Source: Polytrichum commune
Taxonomy: Eukaryota; Streptophyta; Polytrichopsida; Polytrichales; Polytrichaceae
Direction of reading: 5' to 3'
Assembly: GCA_950295325.1 (NCBI GenBank)
Contig: OX485806.1
Span: 45,937,169 to 46,001,168, forward strand
DNA length: 64,000 nt
Each line of letters starts with the position of its first letter. Within the stretch, counting starts at the first letter, position 1. Positions 11,220 through 52,009 of the stretch are shown here, in pieces. A model generated the notes under the pieces. It was not told where the DNA came from. It made no database searches and saw nothing but the letters and a program-made list of their open reading frames with translations. The translations under genes were made by a program, and so were the position numbers.

Positions 11220-11350
11220 ACTTGACTCTTGTGGTAGAAGTTAGCCCCAGACCATAAGATAGCCCCAATAGTGGAGGTTGGAGAAGCAAGACATGCGATG
11301 GAGGGGGAGCAAGGAACATGTAAAGGATTTTGCGGTTTCGGATGTGCTCC

Positions 11351-13560: not shown

Positions 13561-13711
13561 TGAAGTCTGTTTTGTGTTGCTCACTAAGGGCAGCAATGTT
13601 TCCGTTTCTATGTGCAGGTTTTGGGAATGGTCTGGGGCTGCTTATATATAAGTTCAAGTTTTTATATCTTCTTGAATGTATTACGATGCTGATGACTTCG
13701 CTTTGATGCAG

Positions 13712-14537
13712 TCCCCCTTACGGATTCGGAGTTGAAGTTGAAGCTTCACGACCTTGCGATTAAGGAGAGCGTTCCAACAGCCTCTCATCTAGAGAAGCTA
13801 AAATGGCAACCAAAACAGAAGGGTCGTCTCTTCATCCCCCTCTGCCGTATGATGCCTCTTCCTGTGGTGAGACCGTTTCTCAAGAACGACGTATCCCAAC
13901 TTGCAACACATTTTATGACCGATGGCTACATGGAGGGGTGTGGTTTTTTTTATGTGGCTTTGGAGGATCACCATGGGCATACCAATGACGTGACCCCGAA
14001 TGTGCTGGCTAAGTGGTCATCGGAGTGGAAGGAGGTGAATGCTGAGTTTGAGAAGAAACTTATTGCCGATGATGATTTAAAGATTTTTTCTAACAAGATG
14101 TTCATGGTTTGGGATGGTAACCATCGGCTGCAGGCATGGATGCCTATCATTGAGCAATTTCATACTCATGATATGAATTGGCATTTCTGTGTTGAGGGTG
14201 TAATCCTTGACCCAAGGGGAGACGTTCCATCTGTGATAGCCGCTCTGCACGAAGTGAATTGGTAAGATCCTAATCCTTGCCGGGAGTGTTTGAATTTATT
14301 GTTTGAATTTTATGCATCTTCTTAATGTAAAATTTTGGATTTGCAGGAAGAACCAAAAATCTCACGTCACAACGAACCTAGTTCACAAGTTGTTTCGCAT
14401 CCAGAATCTTGCTCCACAACCACTGTCGTACTTTGAGGGTTTGGTATCTCCAACTGTTTTGGAGGCTGCAAGGAAGAAACAGGCTGGAAAACATCGGACT
14501 TGGTTCACCCTCACCGTTGAAGGTCTCACTGTGGTTC
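13712..14537 (+). pseudogene. Outer accessory gene, ParB-like exon and first part of exon 2
   Basis: Exon 13,712-14,261 (acceptor TTTGATGCAG, donor GTAAGA) encodes a ParB/sulfiredoxin-like domain. It has I-P-L-C-R-M-M-P-L-P-V-V-R-P, then G-Y-M-E-G and, about 90 residues later, F-M-V-W-D-G-N-H-R-L-Q-A-W, the G-x-H-R nucleotide-contacting motif of the fold. The next exon begins at 14,347 after TTTGCAG and runs to 14,537, where the inner MULE starts. It resumes at 30,681 after the 10-bp duplication and ends at a donor after 30,688. Across the removed insertion the frame joins and matches the end of the same exon in the inner copy. The domain call is from motif and predicted order; overall identity to known ParB is low. 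Confidence 0.75.
14528..14537 (+). repeat. Left target-site duplication of the inner MULE
   Basis: ACTGTGGTTC directly before the left terminus. The right duplicate is ACTGCGGTTC at 30,671-30,680 (9 of 10 identical). A 9-11 bp duplication is the hallmark size for Mutator-like elements. Confidence 0.85.
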
Positions 14538-14578
14538 GGGAAAAGCTATTTTGCGAGCGGTGAGCGGTAAGCGGTAAA
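14538..14578 (+). repeat. Left terminal inverted repeat of the inner MULE
   Basis: GGGAAAAGCTATTTTGCGAG followed by direct repeats of (T)GAGCGG/TAAGCGG. It matches the right end at 30,630-30,670 in inverse orientation, the left end of the third element at 59,918, and, more weakly, the right end of the outer element at 35,001-35,030. Confidence 0.9.
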
Positions 14579-14739
14579 TTTTCTAGAATATTGAAATTTT
14601 GTGTGGTGAAACATGCCCTATGACCGCGGTGTAGAGCTAACTTTTGAAATATTTATTGACAAATTTATTGACAAAAAGAACCTATAACCGTGGTTGAGGA
14701 ACCTATGATGTATTTGCTTGCACCTTCTCTTATAAGGTT

Positions 14740-15480
14740 TGTAGGTTGGGAATGGATCCCGGATGGTTACAGGTTGTCATTTGAGGTGGACTAAGTCCCA
14801 CTTGGAGAAGGCCTCGGATCCGAGGCCTCATGGCTGCGGTATCATTTCAGATTGGGTATAAGGTTTGTAGATTGGGAATGGGTCTCGATGGTTACAGGTT
14901 GTCATTTGAAGTGGATGAAGTCCCAGTGGGAGAAGGCCTCGGACCCGAGGCCTCATGGCTTGAGCCCCTAAATTCTGATTGTGTTTAAAGTTGGTGGTTT
15001 CTGGGTGGGTCTCGGCATTTCAAGTGGAGGGGCTACTTTGCAGAAGGCCTCGGATCCGAGGTTTGTTTTGCCTTGGGGTTTGCTGTTTGATTTGAGGTCA
15101 AGTTTATGGTTTCAGATTGAATGTAGGCATGCCATGTTTGAGTTATATGTTTAGCTACATTCAACCTGACTCCATAAATTTGAAATCGAATCATTGGTTT
15201 CAATTTGGGTCTCGACATGCCCAATGGCTTAGATTTCATGTTCGGTCTCGGCATGGCCAATTTGGACAAGGCCTAGGGGTTTTATGTTTAGGGTGAATTA
15301 AAGTTTATGGTTTCCGGTTGAATATGGGCATGCCATGTTTGGGTTTCATGCTTAGCTACATTCAACCTGACTCCATAAATTTGACATCAAATCATTGGTT
15401 TAAGGTTGAGTCTCGGCATGCCAAGTGGTTCAAATTTCATGTGGGAGTGGCCACTTTGGATATGGCCTCGGATTTCTTGG
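14740..15480. repeat. Subterminal repeats with 20-bp palindromes
   Basis: Two close repeats of about 125 bp (TATAAGGTTTGTAG...GGTTACAGGTTGTCATTTGA) carry perfect or near-perfect palindromes. These are AGGCCTCGGATCCGAGGCCT at 14,809-14,828, AGGCCTCGGACCCGAGGCCT at 14,934-14,953, and a third with one arm altered at about 15,045-15,064. From 15,100 to 15,480 a second repeat pair follows (CATTCAACCTGACTCCATAAATTTGA, twice), with TCTCGGCATGCC motifs. All lie between the left terminus and the 3' end of the accessory gene. Confidence 0.8.
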
Positions 15481-15977
15481 GGTTTGATGTTTGATTTGAA
15501 CAAAAAACATAGGATGATGTCCGTATTTTATGCACAAGCCTTTTTTGGGTTCTAACATTCTTCTTCCATTCTATCTTCTAATTTTCTTATTCTTCCAGTC
15601 TATCTTCTTATTTTTTGTAATTCTAAAAAACGTATTGATATTCTATACTTATCATCTTTAATTTTTTGGTTTAGTTTTCCTTAGTCTTTGTTTCATGTTT
15701 TGATCTATATGTTTACAACTACATTTCTTTATGTTTTTTGGGTTTTGTTTTGAATTTTGTTACATGGATGATGCTATGGTGGATAATGAGGTAGTTTACC
15801 TCTATGCCTTATTGAATAATAGAGTGCAAGGAGGGTTTAGGGTAAGAGTGTAAGAAGGCATTACAAAATATAATTCACTGTCTAAGGAAAACCATGAAGA
15901 TTACCGCACTAAACAGACAATTAATAATCAAATGCAAAAATATATTATTATGCAAGCAATAAGACACAAAATTCTAC

Positions 15978-17459
15978 CTAAGACATATAATCGAAATCAC
16001 AATTATCAGATAATGCTACAGAGACTTTAGAATCTGTACTATCTGCATCTGAAGAGCCTTCATCCTCAGACTCAACAACTTCTAAATCAACATACTCTAT
16101 GCCGCTTAGCATCAACTCCTTAGGTCTAAATGTACGATATGAACCTTCCGCTAATTCATTGGCAACGTCATTTGCGTATGAAGGGAGCCGCCATGACTTT
16201 GGAGGGCTTGGATAGAACTTAGGGTCACAAAAAAAAGGGCGGTGACTAGGGTATCTCAAATTACCGCTTCTGCAAATGCAAATGGCAACATGGTCATAAA
16301 ACCGCCTCATATGAAAGAAAATAAGAAAATATATCACTAGTAGTAGAAATAGTAGCTATACTCACTTACTAAACCTTGATTTCTTCACGATTTTCTGAAC
16401 AACAATGATTTCGCTATGTGGATCCTCTGACATGACAACGTCTCTTGATTTCACTTCTATGGCCGAAGCATTTCGAATTAGAGGAGCGATCAAGGCTTCA
16501 AAAATTGCCTTGTCATCCTCTAATGCCGCAATGTGACGGTTCACATTGCGGCACGCATGAATAGAAACACCTGCAAAATAAAAAAACAATGAAGTTCAGT
16601 TCTCAAACAACATAAAAATTAATTAACATGAAATGATCAACGGTTATTTACTTAAACATGAAGATATGTTCAACGTACCCGTAGCTGTAGAGCAGTCTAG
16701 AACAATATCCCCGGGTGAAGAAGATGCCTGAATGAGCATCTGTATAAGGGCGAGGGATTTTTCGCGAGGACCACGCCAAGGGGTGGATCCATCCATTAAC
16801 TGATCCTCCCTTGACACCAAGTTCTGGAGGATGTCATCCCGTGCCACATCAATCCCGTGACGGTCTAGTGCAGGGATGTGTTGAAAGCAAAATCTGGAAG
16901 CACGCACCTCCGGAATGCTCCTAACAACTAAAGTTATTCCAAACCTCATGGTCTGCAGATTACAAAAACAGTTAATTACTTTACTTACGAAATAAGATAA
17001 AAATCATTAAGCACATTCTAGTAAATGATATGGAAGATTAGTTTGACAAGATTAATAACATAAGATACAGCTATCAATAAAATTAGCAATAAGTCATATC
17101 ATAAAATAAACTCACAGTCAAGACTGGATTAATTGGGGACGTCAGGTGAAGCTTGTTCATCCCCCACCACTCCTTGCGAACAGCAAATCCATACGTGGAA
17201 CAGTACCCAAGAATGATTGACTTTGTAGACATTCGAAAAGGATGGAACAAAATTATAGCCCCATCGTCTTGAAGGTGATGGTCTGCGAAATCAAAGATTG
17301 TTTGAAACCAATCCTCAGGTTCTATGTTCCAGGCGGGAATAAACGAAGGTGGATTCGAAATTCCTGGAACAGGAAGGCCCTCTGGAAGATCTGTAAGAAT
17401 CAAGTCCACACAGGGCACTTCCACAACAGATCCCTTGTAGCGTCGGCCTTTGTCACTTG
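15978..17459 (-). pseudogene. Inner accessory gene, C-terminal exons: beta-class DNA methyltransferase-like domain
   Basis: Exons on minus: about 17,459-17,116, 16,952-16,679, 16,570-16,370 and 16,305-15,978 (stop TAG), all with GT/AG borders. The first has a motif-IV-like D-L-I-L-T-D-L-P-E-G and then D-D-G-A-I-I-L-F-H-P. The second has S-T-P-W-R-G-P-R-E-K and the SAM-site motif D-I-V-L-D-C-S-T-A-T-G. The third has A-C-R-N-V-N-R-H-I-A-A-L-E-D-D, comparable to the region after motif I in which the enzyme contacts the SAM ribose. Order IV then X/I is that of beta-class N6-adenine/N4-cytosine DNA methyltransferases. The usual (D/N/S)PP(Y/W) catalytic motif reads DLPEG, so activity is doubtful. 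The acidic tail is rich in Glu/Asp/Ser. The upstream side is broken by the gypsy insertion at about 17,460. Confidence 0.72.
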
Positions 17460-18170
17460 TACGAAAACATAATCTCGCGGTTCGGGGTGCCAAACCGGTT
17501 CGCGGTTCGAGGTACACATTTTTTGAACGACTTGGTTCGGGAAATGACCGAGAGGTTTCGAATCGATCACCGGAAGACCACCCCTTATCACCCCCAAACA
17601 AACGGACAAACGGAGAGGGTTAACGGTATTTTGGTAAGTATCCTACGCAAGACGGTCCTAGACTCAAAGCGCGATTGGGATACGAAACTAACGGCGGCAC
17701 TTGGGCATATCGCACAACCTATAAGGTCACCACGCACGCGACTCCATTTTCATTGGTTTACGGGTTAGAGGCTACTCTTCCAATCGAATACGAAGTCGAA
17801 TCACTTCGAGTTGCCGTGGATACGCGCCTCACTTACGAAAAATCTTTGAGGAGTCGACTTACGGACTTGGAGGCGCTCGACGAGCGAAGGCGAATGGCGG
17901 CCCAACACATCGAGGCGATTCAACGCCGACGGAAGCGCATCTTCGACAAACGAAACAAAAAACGGGCACTCCAACCGGGTATGATGGTCATGATCCAAGA
18001 TGCAAGGAAACTCGAATTTCCCGCAAAGTTTGATGCGGTATGGCTAGGCCCTTACCTTGTAAACGAGGTGTTTCCAAAAAATTCACTTCAATTGGAAACT
18101 TTAAATGGACAACTCTTTCCTACGCGGACTTCGGGAAGTCGTTGTAAGCAGTACCTAGCGTGAATTCGGC
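17460..18170 (+). pseudogene. Ty3/gypsy integrase C-terminal part, 5'-truncated
   Basis: Two overlapping frames give integrase core and C-terminus: H-F-L-N-D-L-V-R-E-M then T-T-P-Y-H-P-Q-T-N-G-Q-T-E-R-V-N-G, about 90 residues later L-E-A-T-L-P-I-E-Y-E-V, and the C-terminal Q-P-G-M-M-V-M-I with G-P-Y-L-V-N-E-V. One frameshift lies near 17,690. It is followed by a purine-poor tail, GGATCCACCCCCC, and the 3' LTR at 18,224. It starts abruptly inside the integrase, so the insertion lost its 5' part together with a piece of the host accessory gene. Confidence 0.9.
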
Positions 18171-18223
18171 ATTTACCTTCGAAGCAAAAGATTTTGGATC
18201 CACCCCCCGATGGTCGCCAATTA

Positions 18224-19775
18224 TGTGAGCCCAAAATGGTGCCCACATGTGGTGATTAACTCTTCGGGACCAATTTTAGTTTGACTTTGAGGTGTTATGA
18301 TTATTTACAAAACATAAAAAGAGTGAAGTGTGGTGTGGATTTAAGTTTAGGCATTAGAATGTGTGGTGTGGTTATTCCAAGGTTTGAATTCAATAAGAGT
18401 ATGCCTTGATATTGTGAGTAGGGGGTAAGGTGAAGCAAGGTGAGCTCCGCGGGTTAAATGCCCACTTTTGGATCCACTTTGTTAGTTTAGGAAGAAGGAA
18501 GCTTGGTGGAAGGGGATTAGTCCTTACTTTAGAGGTGAAGGTTAAAGGATTGTGATTGGAGGTGCTAATCCTCTCACCCTATCCTCACCTCCCTCTCTCC
18601 CTCTCTCCCTCTCTACTACTTAAGGTGGTTTCTCTCTCATTTTCTTCTCTCTTCATCAAGCGCTCTCAAGGGAGCAAGTTCTTAAGAGCTTGAGCCACGT
18701 GTGTAGGTTATTAGTTTTAGTGAATTTAATTAGTTAAGCTCTCTCCCTCATTGTCTCTCAAGGGTGTGAGCTCTTAGAGCTTGAGACAAGGTGGGTGAAG
18801 TAAGTAGCTCTTAGAGTAGTTGTGTGTTAGATTAGTTTAGTTCATTAGTGGTTTAGTTAGCTCATTTAGCCAAAGTGCAAAGAAGAAAGGGATTAGTGGA
18901 TGCTTGATTAGCACCTAAGGTGGCGTCATTTAAGTGAGCCAGCTAGTTAAACCTGGTTGCTACATACAAGCTGTTGCCGAGCCACAAGGGTCAGCTGGTT
19001 AAGCCGGTTGCTACATACAAGCTGTTGCCGAGCCACAAGGGTCAGCTGGTTAAGCCGGTTGCTACATACAAACTCCTGCTGAGCCTACTGGTCAGCTGGT
19101 TAAGCCAGTTGCTACATACAAGTTGTTGCCGAGCCACAAGGGTCAGCTGGTTAAGCCGGTTGCTACATACAACTCTGCTGCCGAGCCAAATCTTGGATTA
19201 AGCCGGTCTAAGCCTTGTTAGGCCTTCACTTAACGAGTTAATAAATATAAACCTTAGTCGCCTCCCCACAAATTAACCTTGAACCACAATAGACTATTTT
19301 AGAATATATTAAGACTTAGGTAAGTATTGGATTTATTAGGCTAGGTAGGGCATGTGTGACTTTTAAATGTATTTGGTACTTGAACCATTGATAAAAGTGT
19401 TTTTCAACACTTGAACCTATTGGTCAAAATAAATCACTTGGATTACTAATGAAGAAGGTGGAGGACATCCGCGGTGGCGAGACAAAGGAGGTTAGGCCAA
19501 GGGAGAAAATGGAGGACTCTAGTGACGGAGGGGATAATCAAAAGCCAAAGGAGAATATCTTTGAGAGCTTGTGTTGCCAAGGCCGTTGGTTGGACCCTTG
19601 AGAAGGCCAATTCGGCTACAAGTCAAGAGGCTACCATTAATAAATGAAGTGATTCAAAATAACATGAATGCCTTGGGATGTGAAGTGAGCATTTTCAATA
19701 CACAAAACAATACATGTGATTCTCAACACCATCACCCGGACTAGGACGCTTAAGGGTGGTGGGTTTGGCCTCACA
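18224..19775 (+). mobile_element. 3' LTR, family 2 (1,552 bp)
   Basis: Starts TGTGAGCCCAAAATGGTGCC and ends GGCCTCACA. In inverted orientation its start matches the end of the solo LTR at 49,689-50,977 (CACATGTGGGCACAT...GGGCTCACA) and its end (CACCCGGACTAGGACGCTTAAGGG) matches that LTR's beginning. A CT microsatellite lies at about 18,585-18,625, and a TATA-like TACTTAAGG at 18,615 precedes a pyrimidine-rich leader. The chromosome resumes at 19,776 inside exon 9 of the inner accessory gene. Confidence 0.88.
18955..19180 (+). repeat. Minisatellite inside the LTR (about 51-bp unit, 4-5 copies)
   Basis: Repeats of a unit containing GCCGAGCCACAAGGGTCAGC and TGGTTAAGCCGGTTGCTACATA, with one diverged copy (CTGCTGAGCCTACTGGTCAG). 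Not seen in the solo LTRs of the same family, so it expanded in this copy. Confidence 0.85.
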
Positions 19776-22700
19776 CCGTGTCGCCACCAAGGACTTGCTC
19801 TAGTGAGAAGTTTTTAATCCACTCCCCAACTTGGCCATCATTCTCCTCACCCGATGTGAAAACAGGGATTCCTTGGCTTAACTGCTCATAGGAGGAATCG
19901 TGTTTGGTTCCTCTAGACTGAATTGGAGCATGAGAACCAGAGTCATATGTAGGACTAGGCGCATGTGGGCTCTTACATTCTGGCTCTGGAGGGGGGTTCA
20001 TCTTCTTCTTCCCCCTCTTGTTAGTCTTTTCCAGAGAGTTGTGGAGTTTTGCCATCTCTTTCTGGGCCGCTTTCTCCTCAGCTTCCTTCACCTTAAGCGC
20101 TTTCTTCCTATCTTCTTCTAGACGTCGCGAGAGGGCCTTTGCCCTCTCGTGCTCGTCTTCGATGCCCTGTAAATCAACCATCTCAACACCAGACTCTCCA
20201 ACTGCCTCCCTTGACTTCCTAAGTTCATTTTCGAAGGAAGGAGTGAAACTAGGAGCACAGTCGAGGTACCATCCACCTCCTGTAAGATGTGAGGTTGACC
20301 ACGTCCGCTGTTGATTTGCTGAGAACATGCACGTTGAGTTCGACCTGTCAAGCCATGCAGAAAGAAATATGGGGAGATCTTCTTTTGTTATTGCTCCTTT
20401 TGCAAGGAGCTCGTACTTGAAATATCTGCAGGCAAGAAACAAGTCATCATTACATACATTGCAATCGAAATACCTGTGATTTGGAAAACCAAATCAGTAT
20501 GCCAAATATAATAACTGCAGTAGTTAAAGGAGAACCAACCGAAAGAGTACCCTTCGAACAATTAAGTCAGTTCCGTTGAAGCCCACAAATTTGATAGTTT
20601 TGTTAAAAGCCTCTTGACCTCTGAAGAAGGTGGGGAACGCATTGTCCCATAATTTCATTCTACAGTCCTCGATGTATGCAGCCAAGGTCAAAGGCTCGCT
20701 GGGTATTTCAAAGTTGATTGCTAGTCTGTCTTGGCGCAAAGTGTCTTCAAATATAATGGAAGCCTGATCGGATATCTGTAGAAAAATAGTGAGCAAGGCC
20801 GACAACAAGGATGAGAACAAAATTGAGCCATGTATGGAAATTAGAGTAAGAAAGACCGAGAAGAAGACCAAGAGAAAGACCGAATTAATGTAAAAGCTCA
20901 AATCAGGGAAACAGATCTAAAGAGTATATAAGGGGTTATGTACTCACTCCTGCCCAAAAACATGCCTTGGCCAAGAATGCATGCAATTTCTCCTCGTTGG
21001 TGGGCTTGGTTGGGAGTTTGCGTGCCTCACGTGTTGATGCAGAGGAATTGAAATATTCCAACCATTTGATTTTTGAAGCGGGTGATGCTTTTGCAGTAGC
21101 GATCAACTGCAATTTCTCTAAGTTGAGCTCCGGTGTAATTGAGTTAAGAGTGTAGTGACGCGCAATCTGTGAAACATAGAGTAATATATTAGACTCAAGG
21201 AGTTCATTGAATTAATTGTAGAGTGAAAAACGGGCCTTAAAATAGTGGACATACCTCTCCAAGCCAACCCTCTGTCAACTCTGGGTTTGCCACACAAACT
21301 AGTTTTGACATTTTTTTATGAAGTGCCTCGGCTCTCTTTGAAGCAGCGACCTCTCCATCCGTTTGTTCAACAAGTTGACGAACACCCTCATCTGCAGCAA
21401 GTCCCAGTTCGTGCTGCAAAGGGATTACATTAGTTAGTTTGTCATGAAGAAGATGGATTAGGAAAGGCGCATACATATGAAATATCGATTGCCAGACATA
21501 GTGTAGAACCTATGTCTCGGTCCCAAGAATGAACTGTTGAATTCTAGCCAAAATAAAAGACAACACAGGAGCCGACTAGCTTAGTCTTGAACCAAATCTC
21601 AGAACCCAAGCTTCGGACAAAAAAGAAGCTAAACTCAAGTGATAAGTTAGCCAACAGTGGTTGTCAGGGTAGTTATTCTGTTATGTCAGCAAAGTCATAT
21701 AGACAAAGAAATATAGACAAAGAATAGAGCAGCAACATGCTTAATGTGAAATAAAATTAAAGAAAAAAAACGAGGGAATAAATCATTCAGAGTGAGTACT
21801 ATAGAGATTATACCTGGAAGATGAAGTTCGTAAAAACATGTAGATTTAATGAATACCACGTCTTCTTAGCATTTTGAGATTTCTTGCACCTTTTAATGTT
21901 AGCTGGAGTCAATATCTCTTGGTACTGTTCGAGCGGCATAAGTCCATACTTCTGCACCCTAAATAGAGTGTGAATTGTGTTGGTCTTGACGTGAAAGTCT
22001 TCAGTATGTCTACAAGTAACAATCATAGAGTGAAGATAGGCAAATTAAAATATATGTATATTTAAAGTACTCTACATATATGAAAATATTAAGTAATGAA
22101 AACTTACTTGTTGATGTTAGGCATAACTTGCATAACAACACCAGTTTTACCCTTCGTGTCAAGGAGGATGCTATCCACCGAAAAATGCCAGGCCTCTTCT
22201 GTTTTGTGAAGTCTTTGAATATGATTGAGCCAAGCCTGCCGCCTATGGTTCCCGTCACAAACAAAGAACATCAAGTTCTTAAAACTGGCTAACTCCGGAA
22301 CGGATAGAAGAAAGGAGTTGAATTCTTCATTTTTGGCACTCCAAATAGGACCCCACGATGCCTTATGCGCTTTAGTCACCTCATGTGTTTTGCCTTCTTC
22401 ATCCGTTATAGTGACATAAAATACTGAGGCACCCTCTCTATACCCATGGACAAACTCCTGCTCCAATTTAGCAAGATCACTTGAGAGAGTTGGCCTCACC
22501 ATAGGCATGGCCAACATTTTGCACAAGGGAATATGGAACCTTGAGGAACTCAGGGGTTCGACTCTCAGTGGAGAAATCGTGGCAACGGAGTTAAGTTTGT
22601 GTCGGGTCCTGATATCATCTTCATCACCTTCATATGGATCTCTATCTCCAAGCCCCTCTTCATCCTCATCCTGCCCCTCTTCGGAATTGTCCACAGAAAC

Positions 22701-25211
22701 CTGAGAAACACCAGGAACAACATCCTTTGCGTTGTTCTCTACCTGCAGGAGACGGCAGGCTCGATACATTCTATGATCAAACCAGTTATACAGTGTATAA
22801 CAACATTTCAATAAAATTCAGGCAGTCATTGCTAAACAAACGCAAAATGTATACCAAGACACACATATAATTTCAAAACAACCTTAGGATACTAACCAAT
22901 AGGCCCTCAATGTAAGTATGTCGGCACCGAGACAGACCACATCAAATCAATTCAGACCCACCCCGTAAGTATCTCGGGACCGAGACATCCAATTAGTTTC
23001 CAAGCAACCTTCTTCAAACAACATTTTGACCTTAATCACCTAGCAAGAATCATCCACACTAAAATGAATTATGACTAATTCAGACCAGTCAAGACTAATT
23101 CAGACAACTGCAGTGCATTCGTCATTCGAAACTAAACTGATTTCAGTGCTCTTTATAACCTATCCTATCAGAAACTAATTCTGAAATTAAACCCTCCTTT
23201 TAGGTGTCTCGGGACCGAGACACACAATAAGTTCCAAAGCAGCCTCTTGAAACAACATTTTGACCCTAATCACCTAGCCAGAAACATCCACACTAAAATC
23301 AATTATCACTAATTAAGACCACTCAAGAGTAATTCAGACAACTGCAGTGCATGAGGCATTCGAAACTAAACTGATTTCAGTGCTCTCAATAACCTATCCT
23401 ATCATATACTAATTCTGAAATCAGAGCCTCCCTGTAAGTGTCTCGGGACCGAGACACACAATAAGTTTCAAAGCAGCCTCTAAAAACAACAGTTTGACCC
23501 TAATCCCTTAGCCAGAATAATCCACACTAAAATCAATTATGACTCATTCAGACTAGTGAAGAGTAATTCACACAACTGTAGTGCTTGATGCATTCGAAAC
23601 TAAAGTCATTTCAGTTCTTTGAATTACCTATCAAATCCCAAACTAATTCTGAAATCAGACCCTCCCTATAAACTGATTTCAGTGCTCTTAATAACCTATC
23701 CTATCAGAAACTAATTCTGAACAAAAACCCTCCCTATAAGTGTCTCGGGACCGAGACACATAATAAGTTTCAAGCAGCCTCTTGAAACAACATTTTGATC
23801 CTAATCACCTAGCCAGAAACATCCACACTAAAATCAATTATGACTAATTCAGACCAGTCAAGAGTAATTCAGACAACTTCAGTGCATTCGGCATTCGATA
23901 CTAAATTCACTTCAGTTCTTGGAATTACCTATCATATCCCAAACTAAATCTGAAAGCAGACCCTCCCTGAGAGTATCTCGGGACCGAGACACACAATAAT
24001 TTTCAAAACAGCCTCTTCAAACAACAGTTTGACCCTAATCCCTTAGCCAGAATCATCCAAACTAAACTCAATTATAACCTATTCAGACCACTTCAGACTA
24101 ATTCAGACCACATCAATGCTTGCGGCAATCCTGACAGCGTGAAATCCACATACTTCCTACTCAATCCCTAAAACCCAATACCCTAATAAAACCTAATACC
24201 CCCAATAAGACTACCATTGCAAGCATCCCTCAATATAGCGAACATTGCCTACAAGTATGTCTCGGTCCCGAGACTTCAAGAACGACTAAATCGCCCTCAC
24301 CATCAACATAAGGCAGAATTGACATGGATTCCGCAAATCTCCCTCTCGGCACCCATATGCATAAACAAGCTCAGAAAACAAAACAAACCAGCACTGATGG
24401 ACTCTTTGGGTTGGTCCTTTATCGTCCATACAATGGCTAGTGAGCCTTACAATCCAGGTAATTTTGGGTCACACCTTTCATCTTCAAATCCTGCACGAGA
24501 AAACAGATTCAAGGATTGCACGAATGATCCACATTAGAATTCGGTGTGGGCAAGCCTACCTCTTCCCCGAAGTGCCTCTCCTCATTATCCATGCTGCCTT
24601 CACAAAGATCTACAACATCAGCGTCGCCATCGAATTCTCCTATGCTTAACTCAGCAACCTCAGCGTCCCGATCGAAATCTCCTATGCTCTGTTAAGTGGA
24701 TATATCATGTGCTCCTTAGCTATGAAGTTGGCCTCATAAACTGTTGGCATTGGAAATAAACATTACCCTTGACCCAAAACCCTAAAATTCACCAATTGAG
24801 AACAGTCTTCACAAACCTGCTCCTCACTATGAACTGATGTTGAGGCACTCGAGGCTGCACCAGGTTGAAGCTGTGTCTACGTCACTCCCTGTCCCAGATG
24901 CCCAAACGTAATCCAAGTTACATCCTATCACCAAAAATATAAAAACCAACATAAAGGGTAGCTATTGGGTCTCAACTGTTCTAATTATCCTTGAGAGTGG
25001 TTCACATTACGTTTTTAAAGAAAACAATATCATGAGGATTTTTGATAAACAACACCTCACTGCCCCCTTTGTCTTCTGGGTTGTCTTCCTCCGTTACTGG
25101 AAATAAAACGATGGGAGCTACCGCTTCAACATCAAACGTCTTTTCCCCTTTGGAACCTCTACTTGTACCCTTAGAAGAAGTAACCCCTCTTCTACCCATT
25201 GTTGTCCGCAA
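19776..25211 (-). pseudogene. Inner accessory gene, N-terminal and middle exons (ParB-like domain, coiled coil)
   Basis: Exons on minus, all with GT/AG borders: 25,211-25,011 (basic, M-G-R-R-G-V), 24,876-24,817, 24,688-24,560 (acidic), 22,742-22,108, 22,009-21,814, 21,413-21,255, 21,166-20,948, 20,775-20,540 and 20,425-19,776. The 22,742 exon holds I-P-L-C-K-M-L-A-M-P-M-V-R-P, G-Y-R-E-G and F-F-V-C-D-G-N-H-R-R-Q-A-W, the ParB/sulfiredoxin-like signature. The last exon has W-L-D-R-S-N-S, G-G-W-Y-L-D-C, and a Lys/Glu-rich coiled coil (about 50 residues) then K-K-K-M-N-P-P. Exons 1-3 are tentative. A family-2 LTR ends the gene at 19,775, and part of the region between the coiled coil and the methyltransferase is deleted. 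Divergent from the transposase, so expression may share a promoter region at 25,200-25,750. Confidence 0.75.
22918..24276. repeat. Array of palindromes in the first long intron (inner element)
   Basis: Repeat units of about 233-300 bp each end in TGTCTCGGGACCGAGACA or TATCTCGGGACCGAGACA: 8-bp arms around a 2-bp centre. Copies lie at 22,971-22,988, 23,204-23,223, 23,438-23,457, 23,740-23,759, 23,973-23,992 and 24,255-24,275 (centre inverted, TCTCGGTCCCGAGA), with a partial one at 22,918-22,936. The unit also carries ACATCCACACTAAAATCAAT and ACTAATTCAGACCA. It occupies the intron just before the ParB-like exon, the same place as the hairpin array in the outer element. Confidence 0.93.
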
Positions 25212-25756
25212 GTTGTACGGCGTCCCTAAGCTTTCTCATGATTCTAACCTTTGCCTTCTCTCAATTCGCCTCTGTTTCTCACTATTCCTCCTTCCTTCTC
25301 GTTCTGCTCTTGCTCTCGACCTAGTGTTCATCTCTAACAAACATCTGAAGCAAACAGATCTTATATATCATTTTCAAGTCTGTCAGAATTAACATCTATG
25401 CGCCATCGTTATGTTCACATTTTCTTGTATTTAGATAGTTAATCTGCAGTTACTTAAATTGATCCTTTGTTAATCCACACAACATTAATACACTACAAAA
25501 GGCGGCGCTAAATCCTTTTCTACATAATCGTATCCTTCCATGTCAGATAATTCGTGGTGATAAAGGGATGACTACTATTGCAGTACATTCTATTCATACA
25601 TGAAACAGGTTGTCCAGAATTTACATAAATAACTATTGACTATTAATTGATCTATCAGGTTATCAAATATTCGGGCATTGCTGTCTACCCTAGGTGTATA
25701 TAATACCTGATTACTTGTACCCATTCTTTCATCTCATCTCATCATATTCTTCTCCA
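25212..25756. promoter_or_regulatory. Divergent intergenic region of the inner element (putative bidirectional promoter)
   Basis: Separates the first recognised exon of the accessory gene (-) from the first open frame on + (25,757). A small basic frame on minus at 25,331-25,236 (M-N-T-R-S-R-A-R-A) might be an additional 5' exon. A CACTACAAAAGGCGGCG sequence at 25,491 resembles a CACTA terminus, but no partner end is found. The promoter role is inferred from gene orientation only. Confidence 0.35.
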
Positions 25757-26185
25757 ATGGGTACTGACTCAAGTCTCCCGAGCCTTGCTCCTTTAGGTGC
25801 TCCTAGTGCATCACAAATCCACACCACATCGTCGATTGATGGTTTTCCAGACGTCAACAACATGAAGATTCTAAACCCACCTTACTGCTCAGTAACTCCG
25901 GCGGTCGCAGTTCAGAGTCCACATCCCCGGACTCCATCTTTGCAGACGGATGTTGCAACGCTGATAGAGGACAAGTCTACTTTACAGACTCATGCCTATT
26001 CTAGAGTAGGGGTTATTAAACCGGGCACTTACTCTAGATCTCTATTAAGGAGTGCCCCACGTCCCCAAGGTCAGGGAATCGGTTGCGCAGGATGCACTGC
26101 AGTTCATAGTTTAGGGATTGACCATTGTCATAAACATGACGGTGACAAAAATGGCAAAGGGCCCCATAAGCGTCTTCGTCGTTAA
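25757..26185 (+). CDS. Unrecognised 142-residue ORF upstream of the inner transposase
   Basis: ATG at 25,757 (M-G-T-D-S-S-L-P-S-L). Ser/Pro/Thr-rich for about 100 residues, then a Cys/His cluster C-A-G-C-T-A-V-H and D-H-C-H-K-H-D, ending in a basic G-P-H-K-R-L-R-R that could be a nuclear localisation signal. I see no family match and no counterpart upstream of the outer transposase (9,660-10,800). It could be a separate small accessory protein, a leader exon spliced to the transposase at about 26,500, or chance. The next 340 bases hold only a hydrophobic frame without support. Confidence 0.4.
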   Translation: MGTDSSLPSLAPLGAPSASQIHTTSSIDGFPDVNNMKILNPPYCSVTPAVAVQSPHPRTPSLQTDVATLIEDKSTLQTHAYSRVGVIKPGTYSRSLLRSAPRPQGQGIGCAGCTAVHSLGIDHCHKHDGDKNGKGPHKRLRR

Positions 26186-26530
26186 TCACAATGTAGCATT
26201 CTAATATTATTGCCGAGCTACTATCATGCTCTCCACATTATTCTTGGCGGCCGTCATTCTTATGACTTTATTTGCCAATATATATTATAATCATCAATGT
26301 TTAGAATGTATGCCTGTTCTTGGATTATACTATTTGATATGGATGCCTTTTATAGGATTCTACTATTCGTCTTCTTACCTATCTCGGACTTGCATTCAAA
26401 ATTGGGTTTTCAGCCGTCTTTCATCTTTCTCTGCATGACTCTCTATTAACTTCTGAAATTCCGCTTGCTGGTACATAAATTACCAGTTTGCACAGTAATT
26501 TCTTTCCTGTTATATATTCTCGCCATTTCA

Positions 26531-29500
26531 ATGTTCAGAATACTTGTTTTGTTCAGAGTTCACTGGTTTACTATGGCCCTGCTTCGTGCTGAACCTCATT
26601 CTGTTCCGGTCCTCTTTCCATTAGGTGAAGACGGTCATGCTATAGTCACTTGTGCAACATTGAATTTGAGGTTTCAGTATCGTGAGGTCACTATCTTTGT
26701 CGAAGAAGAAGTTTTTGACGATCATACCGGTCTAGTTTCACATGCAATTCGTCAATCTAGGGTAGAGAATGACTTCGGTGCGTTCTGGTTGCTGATGCCT
26801 GGAAAATATCGTGTATATGGAGTCTCAGAGTCTATGTTAGAGTGTTCGACTGAACTTCTAACACCTAAGGAGTCGTCCACTGTTAGCGTTGAGAGACCGG
26901 TGCTGGCTAGGGTCAAAATTGAACCCGGTCTAAATACAATATATGAGTTGAGTGATGATTCCGACGGCGATGTTGAATTCCTAAAATCAGAGAGGAAAGT
27001 CCCAGCTTCGCTCTCTCCACAAGTAGTTCGCAAGGAAACAACTCTTCCTGTTAGTCCGTATCGTAATCCTGTTCAGGCCAATGTTGTGACAAGTCATGTT
27101 GTCAGTATCATTCATTCATTGATTCGCCTTGGAGCTCGTAAGCAGTCCAAAAGTGTGTTATCTCGTATTAACTTTGATGCGATCAGACTCTAGCAGGTTG
27201 AATACCTTCCCCCTCGTTACGATGGGGACGTTATCTTCAAGTTTCCACCTTTAGGTGACCATGGCCAGAATACAAAGGCCAAGCTGCTTCGTGGAATGGA
27301 TAGAAGGTACAATGGCCATGCTTGGTCTCGTACAATTACAACCAATATTCAGAATGATCTCAAGCTTTTGTTTCGTACATCTTCTTGTTTGGGGCACCTC
27401 CGTTGCGACAATCCTGCTTGTGAGTATCTTCAGCGAGACCACAGGACTTCCCAAGTGAATGAAACAGAGTGGGAAGGATTATCTGAGAAATTGTTTGAAG
27501 TAGGGTCCAAGCCTCCAACTGGTTCGACCGTTGTTTGCAAATCCTGTAACGTCCTTCCAACCTGCGTTGTTGTGTGCACTGCCAAGATCTAATATGTAAG
27601 TGGGACACCTCACATGACGAGGGCTTGTGTGCACTTGGGATCTCACGACCATCCCGTCAAGTCAGGTGATCATCGAGACTTCATCGATTTGACAGACAGC
27701 TTGATTGGGGATCAAGTCGAACGCACCCCATCAGCCACTCGCTCCGCTATTGTGCTTGAAACTACAAAGGAAGTACTGGGCCCACTCCTCCTTGCTAAAG
27801 AAGGCGAACCACAAAAGATATTGGAGTTGGACGAGCTGCAAGTTATTTTCGATCGGTGTAAGCACCTCACCTCGCCCAACATTTGTAACGCAGTCACCAC
27901 GTTCAGGACTATGCGTCGTTTTGGAGTCATGGACAGTATTACCAAGTTACGCGGTGCTAGCAATTGGAGGTTCGTGTAGCAGAATAGGTTTCCAGGGCAA
28001 GGAGCGGACATGGACAAGGTCTTTGTCTTCAAGATGTCTGAAGTTGGACCGGGCAGCGGAGTCGACCTGGTCAAACGAATGCAATCCGGTGGTGATCTGG
28101 AGAACTCTTGGATAATGTTTGACCATGTCAAACGGGTCAGGTCGTGGACGACAATGGCTTGCCATGTGTACGATTCCACATATTGCCGTGTCATGACCAT
28201 CGCAGTATGCGACATGCAGTCTGAAGATGTTGCAGCCCAGTCAGTCGTATGGAAGAACCTGAACGCTCTCATGGCTCAACATGGAGTGGACAAAGTCAAT
28301 TTTAAAGGTTTCATGGCCGACAGTGCCCAAGCGAACTGGAATGCTGTTCGAATCATATACGGAAGTGGAGATGCGTCTGAGAAGATGGTGGACAGAGAGA
28401 GGACTTGTGTTTTCCATTGGACGCAGTCCTTGGAGAAACATACCAAGGCCGATATCCGTCAAGACATGCAATATCAGCATCGAATACTATGCCAACAATA
28501 CAAGAATGCGAAATCGATGGCGGAGGCCGAGACAAAGTTTCTGGCAATTCGAGCATTGTGGATGTCATCCGGTGCAGCAATTGAACAAACTCTTTCTCGA
28601 CTGGAGCTCTGGCTGGCATTCTGGCATTTCCGTTACCGCCAATGGGGTGGATTTATGGAGTTGGTAAGTCTATACTTGCCAAACCTTTCCTGTATAGTTC
28701 ACTCTTATGGTTCAACTACATTGATTCCATCCTTATTCTAATTCGGACTGTATGGGCATTGCAGGATCTAAGTGAAGCTGAACTAGCGGAAATGCCATCT
28801 TGTAACCTTGCTGAATCTATCCATAACAAGTGGAAGCAACAATCTGGCGATCGAGGCAGCGACCTTTATGTGGCAACAGTCGACGACTTTGTGCGTGTTT
28901 TCATGCAGTGCTCAGCATATTCCCAATTCCTAAATGGAGACAACCCTGGAACTGGACCCTCGAAGGAGGAATTGAAGTTGAGGCGTGCTCAAAGGTCAGC
29001 CGCAAAAACAGGAATATCTAAACCTCTGCACGAGGCCATCTTGAAGATGCTTGGCGGTGACGAGTGGTGCACCAGGACTCCCCACCTCGAAGGGGAAGAG
29101 GTATTTGTTTCTCTGAAGCGTAAACCAGACATTGCTTTCGGTGACGAACGTGAATCCCACAGGCCAGACAAAATCAGTATATCCCGACCACGCGTCCAAA
29201 CCAGATCTACCCGACTTAACGATTCTCCTTCTCCTCTGACAATTCCAGATTCTCCCACAACTCCAGATGAAGAGCAGCCGCAACTTCCAACACACGACGC
29301 TCCGCAGCAGGTGGATCGGCACCACGTCACCGCGATTGAGGAGACATTATGCAACCCTGCCCAGTGGCACATCGCACGGCTTTCTAAGACATCTGCGAAG
29401 GCTTGCTTTGCTCTACAAGCAATCACCAAGAAGAAGTGCGTCGCTCGGATTGTACAAGACGGGAAGAGCACCGCTGCACCTACCTACTCGGGCCTCATGG

Positions 29501-30213
29501 ATAACTATCGGAAGAAGAGATTGGACCCTCAAGACTTATTTTTCTGCAATGACGACATTGAGAGATGCGTTAAGGGTACAAAAAGGAGATGGGTGGTCTC
29601 AGTCCCGAACGTTCCGGAGGTATGGCCGGTTAAGTTGGGGACCAACTTAACATGCAAAGAGATCCTCTCTTTAGAAAACGCAGGCTTTAGACTGCCCCAG
29701 CGGAAGGAGATGACACCTTCCAGAATTTTTCAGGACCACCCGTTACCTTTGGACTTGGCAAGCTACACGACACCTGCATATCCCGATGAGTTTCCCACCC
29801 GGCGTTCAGGGAAGTTGATTAGGCGCAACAAGAAGGCCCCGTCAACAAAACACGCCAATAATTGTGCCTCAGCCCTATCACTGAAAGCCAAAGTACACAA
29901 ATTGTGCATGCTTCCAGCCCCTGCCTTAGGATGCATCGTCTCGTTGGATTCCGGCACGCCCCCAAAGGTTCAGCAATACTACTTGACGATTTCGCAGTTG
30001 CCAGCATGCACTTGTCCTAACTTCAAGGAGATGGCGACTAAAGCAATTGGAAAAAGGGGTCAATGGGCCAACTGTAAGCATTTGTACTATTTGTTTACTG
30101 TAGTGTGTGGTTTGGACTCAGATTCAGATACGTTCATTCATGCAGCTAGTTTTAGCTTCAACGAAGTGAAGCGAGTTTTGGAGGCTGGTTTATTGAAGTA
30201 CCTTGACTCTTAG
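26531..30213 (+). pseudogene. MULE-like transposase of the inner element with SWIM zinc finger
   Basis: Conceptual protein of about 1,193 residues: exon 26,531-28,663, phase-0 intron with GTAAGT and TTGCAG, exon 28,765-30,213. Order: N-terminal domain shared with the outer copy; zinc-binding region about residues 285-385 (C-L-G-H-L-R-C-D-N-P-A-C; V-C-K-S-C; T-R-A-C-V-H-L-G-S-H-D-H-P); DDE core with Y-D-S-T-Y (Asp about 548), F-M-A-D-S-A-Q-A-N-W (Asp about 597) and C-V-F-H-W-T-Q; then A-E-S-I-H-N-K-W; a long linker; and a C-terminal SWIM finger at about 30,005-30,080 (C-T-C-P-N-F ... N-C-K-H-L). Such transposases cut at terminal inverted repeats and leave 9-11 bp duplications, as seen here. 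In-frame stops at 27,191 (TAG), 27,590 (TAA) and 27,977 (TAG) disable it. Confidence 0.87.
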
Positions 30214-30629
30214 AGTTTTCTGTTTCTTTAAAGAAATATATGTATGCAAGATTTTTTATAATCATGATGTAGTGAGACTAAAAGGGCCACTACAAGACAT
30301 TTGACGCACCACATGTATTTCTCTTTTCCAAAGTTGCGTGACCTTTTTGGAGTACCACTAATTCTCCTTGTACTGAAACAGTACGTGTTTGACTTGAGAC
30401 AAACCCATATTTATTACTGATATTAGTTCCAAATGTTCAATTTAAGCCCCTACACCATATTTTTCACTGATACTATAACATTTTTTCCTATATCATAGCC
30501 CTTAATTGTCCACGGTCATAGGTCCCACTGTTCACTAAGTTTAGAAAAAAAATTACTTAAAATACATTTAGTCCACATATACCCTAAACTTACTACTTAA
30601 AATAACATTTTAATCAAAATATCGCGGAA

Positions 30630-30670
30630 GTTACCGCTCACCGCTCACCGCTCGCAAAATAACTTCGTCC
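30630..30670 (-). repeat. Right terminal inverted repeat of the inner MULE
   Basis: Reads inward (minus strand) GGACGAAGTTATTTTGCGAG and continues with two GTGAGCGG-type repeats and GTAA. It is immediately followed on the chromosome by the target duplicate ACTGCGGTTC (30,671-30,680). The 410 bases between the transposase stop and this repeat contain no gene; they hold the subterminal CCACGGTCATAGG shared with the other ends. Confidence 0.9.
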
Positions 30671-30680
30671 ACTGCGGTTC

Positions 30681-33600
30681 TTTACCAGGTAATTCAACCT
30701 CAAATGTTTTTTTTGTCATTTCATTTATGATCAAGAAATTCATTTAACTGATTCAAATGATTGTTTGATCTATAGCAAGAGATTGCAGAAGCTGCTCATG
30801 TTGCTGAAGACAAATACAAGATGAAGAACCCAGATTCTAGCACTTGGACAGGTCGTAATGCAGAGGAATGGGTTAGGAAAGCTGTGAAGAAGGTCGAGGA
30901 TAAGCTTGTCGCGGAGCTCAGGAAGCATTTGCCTGTTGCGGATCCCAAGCTAACTCCAGGTTTTCTTGAGGAGATAAAGGCTCACTATGAGAAATTCGAT
31001 GAACCTGAGATGCTTCAGGAGAAGATGTATATGCTGGCTACCTCTGCGATGCCTCCAAAGATGATGGTCAAGTGGCTCCAGAGGTGGAACTCCTCTGTGG
31101 CAATTCGGGATGCGCATCGCTTTCCCAAAACTGCCTTCGCCGACTCCAAGTTCCCGGAATGGCTGAATCGGGCAACATGGTGGGCGCAGGTTAGTATTCA
31201 TCTTAAATTTCATGTTGTCATTTCATTGTCCCCTAATGAGCTATGAAACTCTGGAATTAAGACAATATCTAATTTCTTAAAACTGTTTGTGTGCTTGGGA
31301 TCAGATTGCAGTGGAGGCTGAGGAGCTCTTCTCGGGTGTTCTCACAGATCTTGAGGAAGTTGTTGACTACAATCCCGTTGGCGAAGATCCTATCCTAACT
31401 ATCTTCGATTATGTGGAGGCTATGAGGTGTCAGCTCTGGGAGATTGCTTTCTTCGTTGAGTTGGGTGGAGATAACGGCGCTCACAAGAACAACCCCCCGG
31501 AGAAGCAACCTTTCTTCGGGCAAGCTGTCCGCAAGGTCCTTTACATGTATTTTCGATACGTTCTCCTACCCAGGAAGGCCATCTCTAAGGTTCCCCCTTT
31601 CTTCCCTAACTACCTGGATATCCAAAGTCTTGATTCCATGTTCACTCCTGCAATTGTAAAAACATGGGATCCAATTCATTTTCAGTAGTGCGGGTGGTAT
31701 TTGGACTGTCCGTTCAAGAAACCTCCTCCCTTTGACATCGCACTCAGGGACTCTATTCAACCTCTCTTACCTTCTCCCGCTACTTCAGTTCCACTCTCTC
31801 AGTCTCCTACACCCCCCAGGGTGGCTCCTCCAGAAGCAAGACCGTTAGTAAGGCGAGTAGGCCTCGGGGATCCAAGCGGAAGGCTGCTGAGTTAGTTGAG
31901 GACCCCATGGAGGAAGATATTCTTGTAACAGGTTGTGAGATCGGTGATCCACCTGCAAAACTTGCAGAGTCTTTCAGCTCCCATCCGCCGCGGGCACCTG
32001 CTCTAAAGCGTATTCGCCTTGGAGTTGCCGGTCAATCCAATCCCATCGGATTCGTCCCACCTGCTGTGAAGGCAATGTCTTCTTCCCAGGCATACAACTC
32101 CTCCTATGCTTCTTCTCGGGTTCTCGTACTTAATGACTCCTTCCACAGGATGTTGGATTTTAAGGCGAAGCATAACAAATTCCCTTCAACTTATGATGAC
32201 ATGGTTGCTTTTCTGAATGAGGTACATGTCTAACTTTATTCCCATTCAAATCAGCTAGCCTTCCTCTATTCACAAATGTTTTCTATACTTAATGCCATGG
32301 TTTTTTGGAAACTAATGTTGGTGCTTAATTCCCATTCAATTCAGCTATCAAGCCCCTATTCACCAACTCATTGGTTTTTTTTTTAAGGTTGGAGCATCCA
32401 GGGAATTCTTCTTCTCAGGCAAGGTGTTGCAGAAGGCTGCCGTGGACCTTGTTATTGCAGAGTACCCTGATGGTTTGCCTGTCCCAGGAGTATTCTGAAT
32501 TCCCCGGGCAAGTTCCAAATTGGAATAAGCAGGTTCAGAACTTTGTCAAGTTCACAATTGGCTTCTGTCAGGGCTATCTTCACGACGACGGTGCACTCCT
32601 CTTATTTTATCCTGACAGTGTGCAAATCAAGAAAGAGGTTCTAAGCTTTCTATACAACAACAATCTGGAGGTCAAGGAAGAATGGACCATTATTAATTCT
32701 CTCCACCTCACTCACCCTATGCATAACTCAAAGCGGGTAAGTAATTGTAATCATTTCCCACTCTTCAAGTTCTACCTCATTCATAATTTCAATCACATTA
32801 CTAACAATTCGAGGCCTATGTTTGATGTCCATACTTTGAAGTTCAAAGCAATCGTGTTGGTTCGATCTTTCCCCATACCTTTGGCTAGGCCACCCAAGGA
32901 ATTTGTCATTTGTTCTAGTGACGAATTTGAAGGTGTTGACCTTGCAAGTGATGACGTGCTTTTCAACATTGTCACCGCTGATACTGCACTCAAGCGCAAC
33001 GACGGTGCCACGTTCTAGAGGGGCCCTAAGGAGAAGGCAGTGTCCCTGCTCCAGCTTCTAATCAATGGCCTTAGCCCTCCGGGGGGGATTATTTGTGACC
33101 TCACTGCTGGAACTGGTATGAGTAATTTTTTCAACATTCTCATGTCTCTAGACTTAGGCATTCTACTCAATCACATTCTTCTAATTTATTTATTTTGCTC
33201 TTTGTAGGTGCCTCGATTCTTGCAGCACAATCCGCTAACAGAGCAATAGTGGCACTTGAGGGAGACAAGAAATTGTACGAAGAAATTTTTCACCCACTTC
33301 AGGTCGCCGCGTCGGAGTCTCAGGGGGTCGATCCAACCCACTATGTAGACCTTGACGACGACGACGATGTCCTCCCTCAACAAGATGCAGTTAATCTATG
33401 TGAGTAAGTCTTTTGTCATCTTAAACTTATTTTTTTTAAATGTTGCATTTAATTGGAAGGATTCTAACATTTGTAATTTGTCCTTTGTTGGTGCAGTGTG
33501 ATGGTTCAAGGCTGCGGCTCACCGACTAGTTCTAGCATGCAACTTCCTTGTTATGCAGAGGCTATGGCAGTAGCTTATGCCAAAGACTCCTCCCTTAGTT

Positions 33601-33698
33601 GTAGTGCCTCTTCTAGTCCATGTCAGAGATACGATCCAAGAGTACTCAGATTCATAGATCATAGTGCTTCGGAGAGTGAGGATGAGTTTATTCCTTGA
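30681..33698 (+). pseudogene. Outer accessory gene, remaining exons with methyltransferase-like domain
   Basis: Exons on +: end of exon 2 30,681-30,688; 30,776-31,189; 31,305-32,221; 32,388-32,736; about 32,812-33,115; 33,208-33,403; 33,497-33,698 (stop TGA). They align exon by exon with the inner gene, except that 30,776-31,189 covers two inner exons without the intron. Motif IV equivalent is D-L-V-I-A-E-Y-P-D-G; motif I is well kept as I-I-C-D-L-T-A-G-T-G; then A-N-R-A-I-V-A-L-E-G-D-K. Breaks: TAG at 31,686 before G-W-Y-L-D-C, a frame change at about 31,800-31,840, a 1-base shift near 32,495, and TAG at 33,016 where the other copies have Trp of P-W-R-G-P. The C-terminus is Asp/Glu-rich. Pseudogene, previously a nuclear protein by inference. 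Confidence 0.75.
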
Positions 33699-35000: not shown

Positions 35001-35030
35001 CTCCGCTCTCTGCTCGCATACTAACTTTCC
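35001..35030 (-). repeat. Right terminus of the outer MULE
   Basis: Reading inward on minus: GGAAAGTTAGTATGCGAGC then AGAGAGCGG. It matches the inner and third-element termini (GGGAAAAGCTATTTTGCGAGCGG-type) with several changes and a 2-base length difference. It is at the expected distance after the accessory gene stop (1.3 kb; 1.4 kb in the inner copy). Flanking sequence after 35,030 (TCGGCCGCCG) would be the target duplicate if the left end were present. Confidence 0.7.
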
Positions 35031-36140
35031 TCGGCCGCCGCCCTCAGGTTGGGGATTTTTGGGCCTCTACTTAAGGCTGAATAAGGAGATGGAGAGGGGT
35101 TCCTTCTCCATTGTTGTATTTTGATTACTCCTACTCTAATAAACCCCTTGACTTCTTCACTCTTTGACTTTCCTTGATTGATTTTTCTGTACGAATGATT
35201 CAGAGATAGTTAGCGGAGGAGAGAGAGGGAGAGCATGAGGGGATAGGAGTTCCCGGATAGGACATGGGAGAAGAGACCCGGATCATATCTAGTTATTGCC
35301 TTGCGGATCCTCTCTGTGTGTAGTACGAGGGAAACCTCACTGTTCCGGATGGTTGAGTAACGTCTAGGTGGGATAGCCGCTGGGAGGATTGGGTGAGATC
35401 CGGAAGGGATCCCGACTTGCGCCATCCAAGCTTCTGAAGAGGTCCCACCACCTTTAGACGGACCAATCCAGAAAGTGGTACGGATCGCCTAGTTAGCTCA
35501 GATTGAGTAGAGTCCAAGGTAGTGGTAGCCGGATCGATCCGTCAAAAGGAGGAAGGAAAAACCGGAACAGTTAGGATTCCGGGTCGGAGGCCATTTCCGG
35601 AGTGTAGTGGGAAGGGGACCTCATTGTTCTGGATGTCTAGGGAACGTCTAGGTGAGATAGCCGTGGGGAGGACTGGGTAAAGATCCGGAAGGGATCCGGA
35701 CTTGCGCCAATATGATCTTCTGAAGAGGTCTCACCGCTTGTGGGCGGGACAATCCGGATTGGTTGTGAGGGAATATCTGGATCCCAATCTTATAAGGGAC
35801 GTCTTCCTCGGAAGAAACCACCTATTCTAGAGGGTAGAACGTAGAGGGGTAAATTTGGACCATAGGGGTGAGTAAGTATTATAATTAAGACCTAGAGATA
35901 CAATCCGGGAAAGCAAACTCCGGAAGAAGAAGAGTTTCCAAAAGACCGGAAACCGGGGTTTCCGGAAATTCGGCTAAGGAGTGGAAAATAAGTGGGTACG
36001 GAGAGTTCTCGACCTCCTACACTTCACAGAATCCCTGGACGATACTAAGGTCATCCGGATAAAACCGGATTAGGCACTTAAAAATGCCAATCCGGATATT
36101 TTGGTGTTCGTGTGTTCCCACACTTCCCGTCTACTTAGCG
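35031..36140. repeat. GC-richer unassigned sequence with a 284-bp-offset duplication
   Basis: A block at about 35,335-35,470 recurs at about 35,619-35,755. Shared landmarks are CCTCAYTGTTCYGGATG, AACGTCTAGGTGRGATAGCC, GATCCGGAAGGGATCC and CTTCTGAAGAGGTC. Repeated CCGGA/TCCGG motifs run through the rest. It might be an LTR or the leader of an unrecognised retroelement; no ends or coding sequence were identified. The break with gypsy-derived DNA is at about 36,140. Confidence 0.5.
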
Positions 36141-51955: not shown

Positions 51956-52009
51956 TGTGTCAAAGATATTGGACCAACATAGTGTGCATATCAAACCATT
52001 GTTGCTATG

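Follow-up and report, generated by a model that had tools for sequence, protein, structure and literature searches.

A gene with ParB-like and methyltransferase-like domains accompanies a high-copy, putatively MULE-type DNA transposon in the moss Polytrichum commune

Introduction

A stretch of 64,000 nucleotides of the Polytrichum commune genome (C4:45,937,169-46,001,168; hereafter the window) carries a multi-exon gene whose predicted protein joins a ParB-like N-terminal domain to a methyltransferase-like C-terminal domain. Is this a host gene or part of a mobile element, and what could its protein do? A first-pass annotation of the window claimed three copies of the gene, all of which are present, and proposed that a plant MULE lineage had captured a prokaryotic ParB-methylase and kept it as an accessory. 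Our reading, to which we give a probability of roughly 0.6, is that the gene is an accessory of a high-copy, 13-16 kb, MULE-type cut-and-paste DNA transposon and that its protein acts on the DNA of its own element. The parts of this reading differ in strength. The gene is almost certainly a transposon accessory, the odds that the protein acts on its own element's DNA are about even, and catalytic base methylation is doubtful.

Results

The inner of the three copies lies in a complete transposon of 16.1 kb (14,538-30,670; features are collected in Table 1). The element is bounded by terminal inverted repeats of ~38 bp, which match at 92% and are built of 7-bp units, and by a 10-bp target-site duplication that agrees at 9/10 positions. 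As a control, agreement of at least 9/10 between random pairs of places occurred in 9.5e-5 of draws. Translations on both flanks revealed that the element is inserted within an exon of the outer copy, interrupting that gene between its ParB exon and its later exons. Between its two terminal repeats, the element holds the accessory gene and the transposase, arranged around divergent promoters in the middle so that both 3′ ends point outward.

The 7-bp units GCGAGCG, GTGAGCG, and GTAAGCG, at 14,553-14,573 and 30,633-30,655, are clustered nowhere else in the window, and by eye their period is retained in the termini of the third and outer elements. These units are possible binding sites of the transposase or of the accessory protein.

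Matches to more than 18/30 positions of the terminal repeat occur in the window only at the two inner ends and at the gene sides of the outer and third elements, where they stand 0.9-1.3 kb past the 3′ ends of the genes. At the outer copy, our search of the transposase side revealed no terminal repeat. The ParB exon of the third gene lies just beyond the window (~65,885-65,247 in window coordinates). A search of the 10 kb beyond the window, reaching ~8 kb upstream of the third ParB exon, found neither a transposase of this family nor a second terminal repeat (best match 17/30). At the inner and outer copies, a transposase is divergent from the gene, as the first-pass annotation had described. 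Since the inner and outer ParB exons are 36% identical and their transposases 65% identical, the window contains two diverged forms. Where the divergent promoters of the outer gene and the outer transposase lie, between the two, there is also a 37-bp inverted repeat (95%) at 10,009-10,045 and 10,515-10,551.

We determined how often this arrangement recurs in the genome (408 Mb, 64 contigs). A first look gave 1,184 candidates for the ParB exon, 1,110 for the methylase exon, and 1,750 for the transposase core, and the best 150 of each set were scored. For 87/150 ParB exons, a methylase exon followed on the same strand at most 20 kb downstream (chance mean 0.6, maximum 4), compared to two with the methylase exon upstream and two with it on the other strand. 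A divergent transposase lay upstream, within 30 kb, of 69/150 ParB exons (chance mean 0.77, maximum 4); five had a transposase in another arrangement, and 76 had no listed transposase. Both partners were present for 53/150. The chance values derive from 200 trials, with contig C6 taken as 46 Mb.

A 25-mer of the left terminal repeat matched the genome at 285 places with at most three mismatches, while its reversed control matched at none. Among 99 exact terminal repeats (of 100 listed; one with a single mismatch was dropped), 38 face the 3′ end of a methylase gene and 38 the 3′ end of a transposase, three are wrongly oriented, and 20 have neither feature within 8 kb. On the outward side, a feature occurred in five. 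Two further complete insertions, of 16,104 and 13,482 bp, have perfect 10-bp duplications, so that the three complete insertions agree at 9/10, 10/10, and 10/10 positions. The copy at C4:43.53 Mb has a terminal repeat on the transposase side only.

From the linkage, the flanking termini, and the complete insertions with target duplications, we conclude that the gene is part of a mobile element. A gene occurring mostly as an ordinary host gene without MULE termini, the pattern that would have told against the first-pass annotation, is not the picture seen here. As MULEs tend to take up host gene fragments (PMC6446971), the copies could in principle represent a host gene family carried by chance, in the manner of Pack-MULEs. 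We regard this as very improbable, since a multi-exon gene keeps its position and orientation in many copies, the copies are under selection (see below), and each of the two diverged forms in the window has its own transposase beside it.

A second copy with 100% identity, at C4:46.09 Mb, was not counted as an independent insertion, since the identity extends into its flank (3,001/3,001 bases). This stretch, C4:46.08-46.11 Mb, lies ~130 kb off and corresponds to 13,437-16,437 of the window. Since the distance from transposase to ParB exon there is 16,963 bp, versus 5,870 in the window, the stretch is likely a later insertion or an assembly duplication. Open frames of more than 2,000 residues at some transposase matches were also discarded, as the single one checked was a run of N.

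The ParB exon is under purifying selection. Among 29 genomic exons (one of other length, L019, was left out), the median dN/dS in frame was 0.21 for 320 pairs with dS above 0.05, while the other five frames gave 0.58-1.27 and a rough intron stretch 0.70. The methylase exons of the inner and third copies gave a dN/dS of 0.15 (bootstrap 0.08-0.22) at a dS of 1.46, which is near saturation. Stop-free reading frames were retained by 105/150 ParB exons and 132/150 methylase exons. All copies in the window show decay: an insertion splits the inner gene, the outer one carries a frameshift plus a stop, two stops lie in the third ParB exon, and the inner and outer transposases contain three in-frame stops each.

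Three results weigh against our reading. The transposase, with an unbroken relative included, matched no Pfam model at E 10 or better. The ParBc family model matched 0/47 scanned sequences. Finally, the catalytic motif [DNS]-P-P-[YFW] was present in 0/72 rows of the methylase-domain alignment (34 of 106 rows do not span motif IV and were dropped; P0104 and P0105, annotated methylases that look ordinary by eye, had been dropped earlier).

The first of these results concerns the MULE label, which had been given to the element in the first-pass annotation. We infer this label from the length of the duplication, the termini, and motifs read by eye, although Pfam gives it no support. Target-site duplications of MULEs are 8-11 bp (PMC6446971), and the 10-bp duplications fall within this range; the ~38-bp termini are short for the superfamily, yet within the range in the same paper. 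By eye, D, D, and E residues are conserved in three transposase sequences, and a CxC...CxH finger is present at 30.0 kb, where the Pfam SWIM model found no match. The missing Pfam match, which extends to the unbroken relative, speaks for another DDE superfamily with ~10-bp duplications. Such a placement is improbable, as the duplications, short termini, and finger all fit the ranges described for MULEs (PMC6446971).

To characterize the protein, we modeled nine exons of the inner gene on the minus strand, from 22,742 to 16,362, with uncertain borders beside an insertion; a tenth was taken from translation and homology to the third copy. The insertion, of ~2.5 kb between 17.5 and 19.8 kb, breaks the gene, and the spacing from ParB to methylase exon is 4,994 bp, versus 2,503 bp in a 97% copy. 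First exons starting at 25,211 (inner) and 10,857 (outer) had also been claimed, and homology confirmed neither. Long tandem arrays occupy the regions upstream of the ParB exon, at 11,349-13,579 for the outer gene and 22,949-24,130 for the inner gene. In the protein, a middle region separates an N-terminal ParB/sulfiredoxin-fold domain from a C-terminal domain with the beta-class methyltransferase fold. A coiled-coil-like stretch was seen by eye in the exon at 20,425-19,777.

For the N-terminal domain, a resemblance to ParB/sulfiredoxin appears in fold comparison only. The motifs P-x-V-R-P and D-G-N-H-R are present in the inner and outer copies, where they had been described. Of 45 chosen relatives, 43 contain D-G-N-H-R, one has DGNHM, and one has no such match. 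ParB CTPase proper is characterized by a G-E-R-R box, which we did not find here, D-G-N-H-R being in its place. A fold built from two ParB-exon sequences was discarded (pLDDT 36). Of the earlier identification as ParB plus methylase, the methylase half is supported by a family score above cut-off and the ParB half by its fold, but not by any ParB sequence model.

A ParB fold could also help transposition directly, as a nuclease or a nucleoside triphosphate-driven clamp that acts at the terminal repeats together with the transposase; the methylase part would then be secondary. Nicking by the ParB domain has been reported for a Bacillus cereus ParB-methylase fusion (PMC5512222), integration is described as apparently dependent on the MULE accessory mudrB (PMC6446971), and the termini contain the 7-bp repeats. 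However, one related branch of transposases, at 73-80% identity, is seldom linked to the gene: a ParB exon from the best-150 list was linked to 1/20. This branch either lacks the gene or has one too diverged for that list. Overall, we consider such direct help unlikely.

The order of motifs IV, X, I defines the beta class of N6/N4 methyltransferases. This order, reported in the first-pass annotation, can be read in all three spliced copies, and scores of 32.2 and 26.8 bits exceed the cut-off of the N6_N4_Mtase model PF01555, which is 26.7. Conservation extends to motif X and to a motif I of the S-adenosylmethionine type. Motif IV is mostly [DE]-x-P-[DE]-G, with an acidic residue replacing Y/F/W in 69/72 rows. 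Since motif IV is altered, methylation is not assured, and the earlier suggestion that the protein marks its own DNA is weakened. The missing aromatic residue speaks against ordinary base methylation, and the conserved remainder speaks for a function that still needs the fold. Among the listed matches of the methylase domain, two carry a Pfam methylase annotation and look ordinary by eye (E 6.8e-6 and 5.1e-4).

These data bear on two accounts of the methylase part. In the first, it is catalytically active as an N4-cytosine or N6-adenine DNA methylase and marks the element, replacing or competing with host 5-methylcytosine. The PF01555 score, the conserved motifs X and I, and the selection are in keeping with this account, and 4-methylcytosine has been reported in Marchantia sperm (PMC8566409). 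We nonetheless find it questionable, given the form of motif IV in the alignment. In known enzymes, the aromatic residue of motif IV stacks on the flipped base. The other account is a conserved, non-catalytic methyltransferase fold that binds DNA or senses S-adenosylmethionine, comparable to METTL14 beside METTL3; the protein would then partner the transposase structurally or counteract silencing. The replacement of the aromatic by an acidic residue in a motif that remains strongly conserved, together with the selection, favors a non-catalytic fold, whereas the conserved motifs I and X suggest that cofactor still binds, and a changed substrate would explain motif IV equally well. We place this second account somewhat below even odds.

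In database searches with domain alignments, the methylase domain recovered 105 proteins at E 0.001. The ParB-exon alignment recovered 476 at E 0.01, 120 of them listed. A protein of the moss Ceratodon purpureus, among the 225 matches listed, has 59% identity across 65% of the query. When the spliced full-length inner protein was the query, none of 7,779 candidates reached E 0.001. A scan of IMG/VR with the methylase alignment gave two loci, both weak partial matches; PHROGs gave no match to two ParB exons; and a PDB sequence search with ParB and transposase queries gave nothing relevant.

Elsewhere in the window, another dispersed repeat occurs at five places with 67-83% identity (3,155-3,986, 38,498-39,138, 42,414-43,308, 51,428-51,956, and 56,102-57,034), and the open frame at 41,216-41,971 resembles, by eye, a fragment of a CACTA-type transposase.

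Table 1. Features of the inner, outer, and third copies, in window coordinates
Feature	Position	Strand	Basis or remark
Inner element, left terminal inverted repeat (core)	14,538-14,567	+	7-bp repeats GCGAGCG/GTGAGCG/GTAAGCG
Inner element, right terminal inverted repeat	30,641-30,670	-	
Target-site duplication, ACTGTGGTTC	14,528-14,537	+	in outer-gene exon
Target-site duplication, ACTGCGGTTC	30,671-30,680	+	9/10
Inner gene, ParB-fold exon (with DGNHR)	22,108-22,742	-	fold comparison
Inner gene, middle exons (22,009-21,814, 21,413-21,255, 21,166-20,948, 20,775-20,540, 20,425-19,777)	19,777-22,009	-	homology to outer and third copies
Insertion in inner gene, limits approximate	17,500-19,770		retroelement-like by eye; open reading frame 17,624-18,163
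Inner gene, methylase exon with motif IV	17,116-17,456	-	DLPEG at 17,391-17,377
Inner gene, methylase exon with motif X and start of motif I	16,679-16,952	-	WRGPREKS; DCSTATG
Inner gene, methylase exon with rest of motif I and motif II	16,362-16,570	-	true 3′ border probably a few bases earlier
Inner gene, last exon	15,978-16,269	-	homology to third copy
Inner transposase	26,573-30,213 (about)	+	two coding stretches; three in-frame stops; CxC...CxH finger near end
Outer gene, ParB-fold exon	13,712-14,261	+	
Outer gene, remaining exons with methylase domain	30,671-33,698	+	EYPDG motif IV; frameshift and stop
Outer transposase	7,502-9,664	-	three in-frame stops; 3′ part not found
Outer element, gene-side terminal repeat	35,003-35,032	-	23/30; best of 20 shuffles 21
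Third gene, C-terminal exons	60,877-63,802	-	DIPKC motif IV
Third element, gene-side terminal repeat	59,918-59,947	+	25/30

Discussion

The first-pass annotation knew of no description of a gene of this kind, a statement that fails. A paper of 2025 (PMC12477816) reports an accessory protein with ParB and N4/N6 methylase domains in the Ectocarpus transposon Sola1-1_Ec32, and cites transposon proteins of like kind from green and red algae. Compared by description only, the Ectocarpus and moss genes share the pairing of domains and a position on the opposite strand to the transposase, but differ in transposase superfamily (Sola1) and host lineage. Beyond that paper, we found no such pairing in a eukaryotic transposon, and none for a MULE or a land plant, in a search that did not cover most subscription papers. 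What appears to be new, within this search, is a MULE-type element, a land plant, a high copy number with measured selection, and a catalytic motif that is altered yet conserved.

As for accessory genes in general, KI elements carry Ulp1-like proteases. The MULE accessory genes mudrB, Mutyl mutB, and Hiun vanB and vanC are likewise extra genes next to a MULE transposase, in some cases on the opposite strand, and vanC is anti-silencing; unlike the moss gene, none of those in the part of the PMC6446971 survey that we covered is a ParB or DNA methylase. Mobile elements with other DNA-modification enzymes are also on record, namely C5 methylases in dinoflagellate and charophyte retrotransposons (PMC5890265) and TET/JBP in fungal DNA transposons (PMC12730594), which differ in enzyme family and element type. 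A prokaryotic example is the Bacillus cereus protein, which has a ParB-type domain and an adenine methylase in one polypeptide (PMC5512222).

Since the pairing also occurs in algal transposons, an older shared module, or exchange between transposons, is at least as likely as capture from a prokaryote by this lineage. Prokaryotic ParB-methylase fusions, unlike the moss gene, are not known to have a long middle region or introns, and their motif IV is canonical.

A mechanism that accommodates our reading of an accessory protein acting on its own element would begin with the ParB-fold part loading onto the element, perhaps at its 7-bp terminal repeats. The methyltransferase-fold part might then modify DNA or, if non-catalytic, serve as an S-adenosylmethionine-dependent DNA-binding part. 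In this way, the protein could relieve the element from host silencing or control its transposition, a role comparable to that of VANC in VANDAL elements. A fuller proposal, which we hold tentatively and rate as rather unlikely, is that a land-plant MULE-type lineage keeps, under selection and in no fewer than 150 scored copies out of 1,184 candidates, a ParB-methyltransferase whose active site was rebuilt family-wide from [DNS]PP[YFW] to [DE]xP[DE]G. Such a protein would be either a DNA-modifying enzyme of new specificity or a ParB-type clamp with a catalytically silent methyltransferase fold that loads on the 7-bp terminal repeats to resist silencing.

With our results, the bacterial-type pairing of ParB and methylase, known from algal transposons, extends to a land-plant element that is probably of MULE type. 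This suggests an accessory module common to superfamilies of eukaryotic elements. Its role is made testable by the copy number, by the copies free of stops, and by a catalytic motif that is altered yet conserved: whether a plant transposon writes, or only binds, a mark other than 5-methylcytosine on itself.

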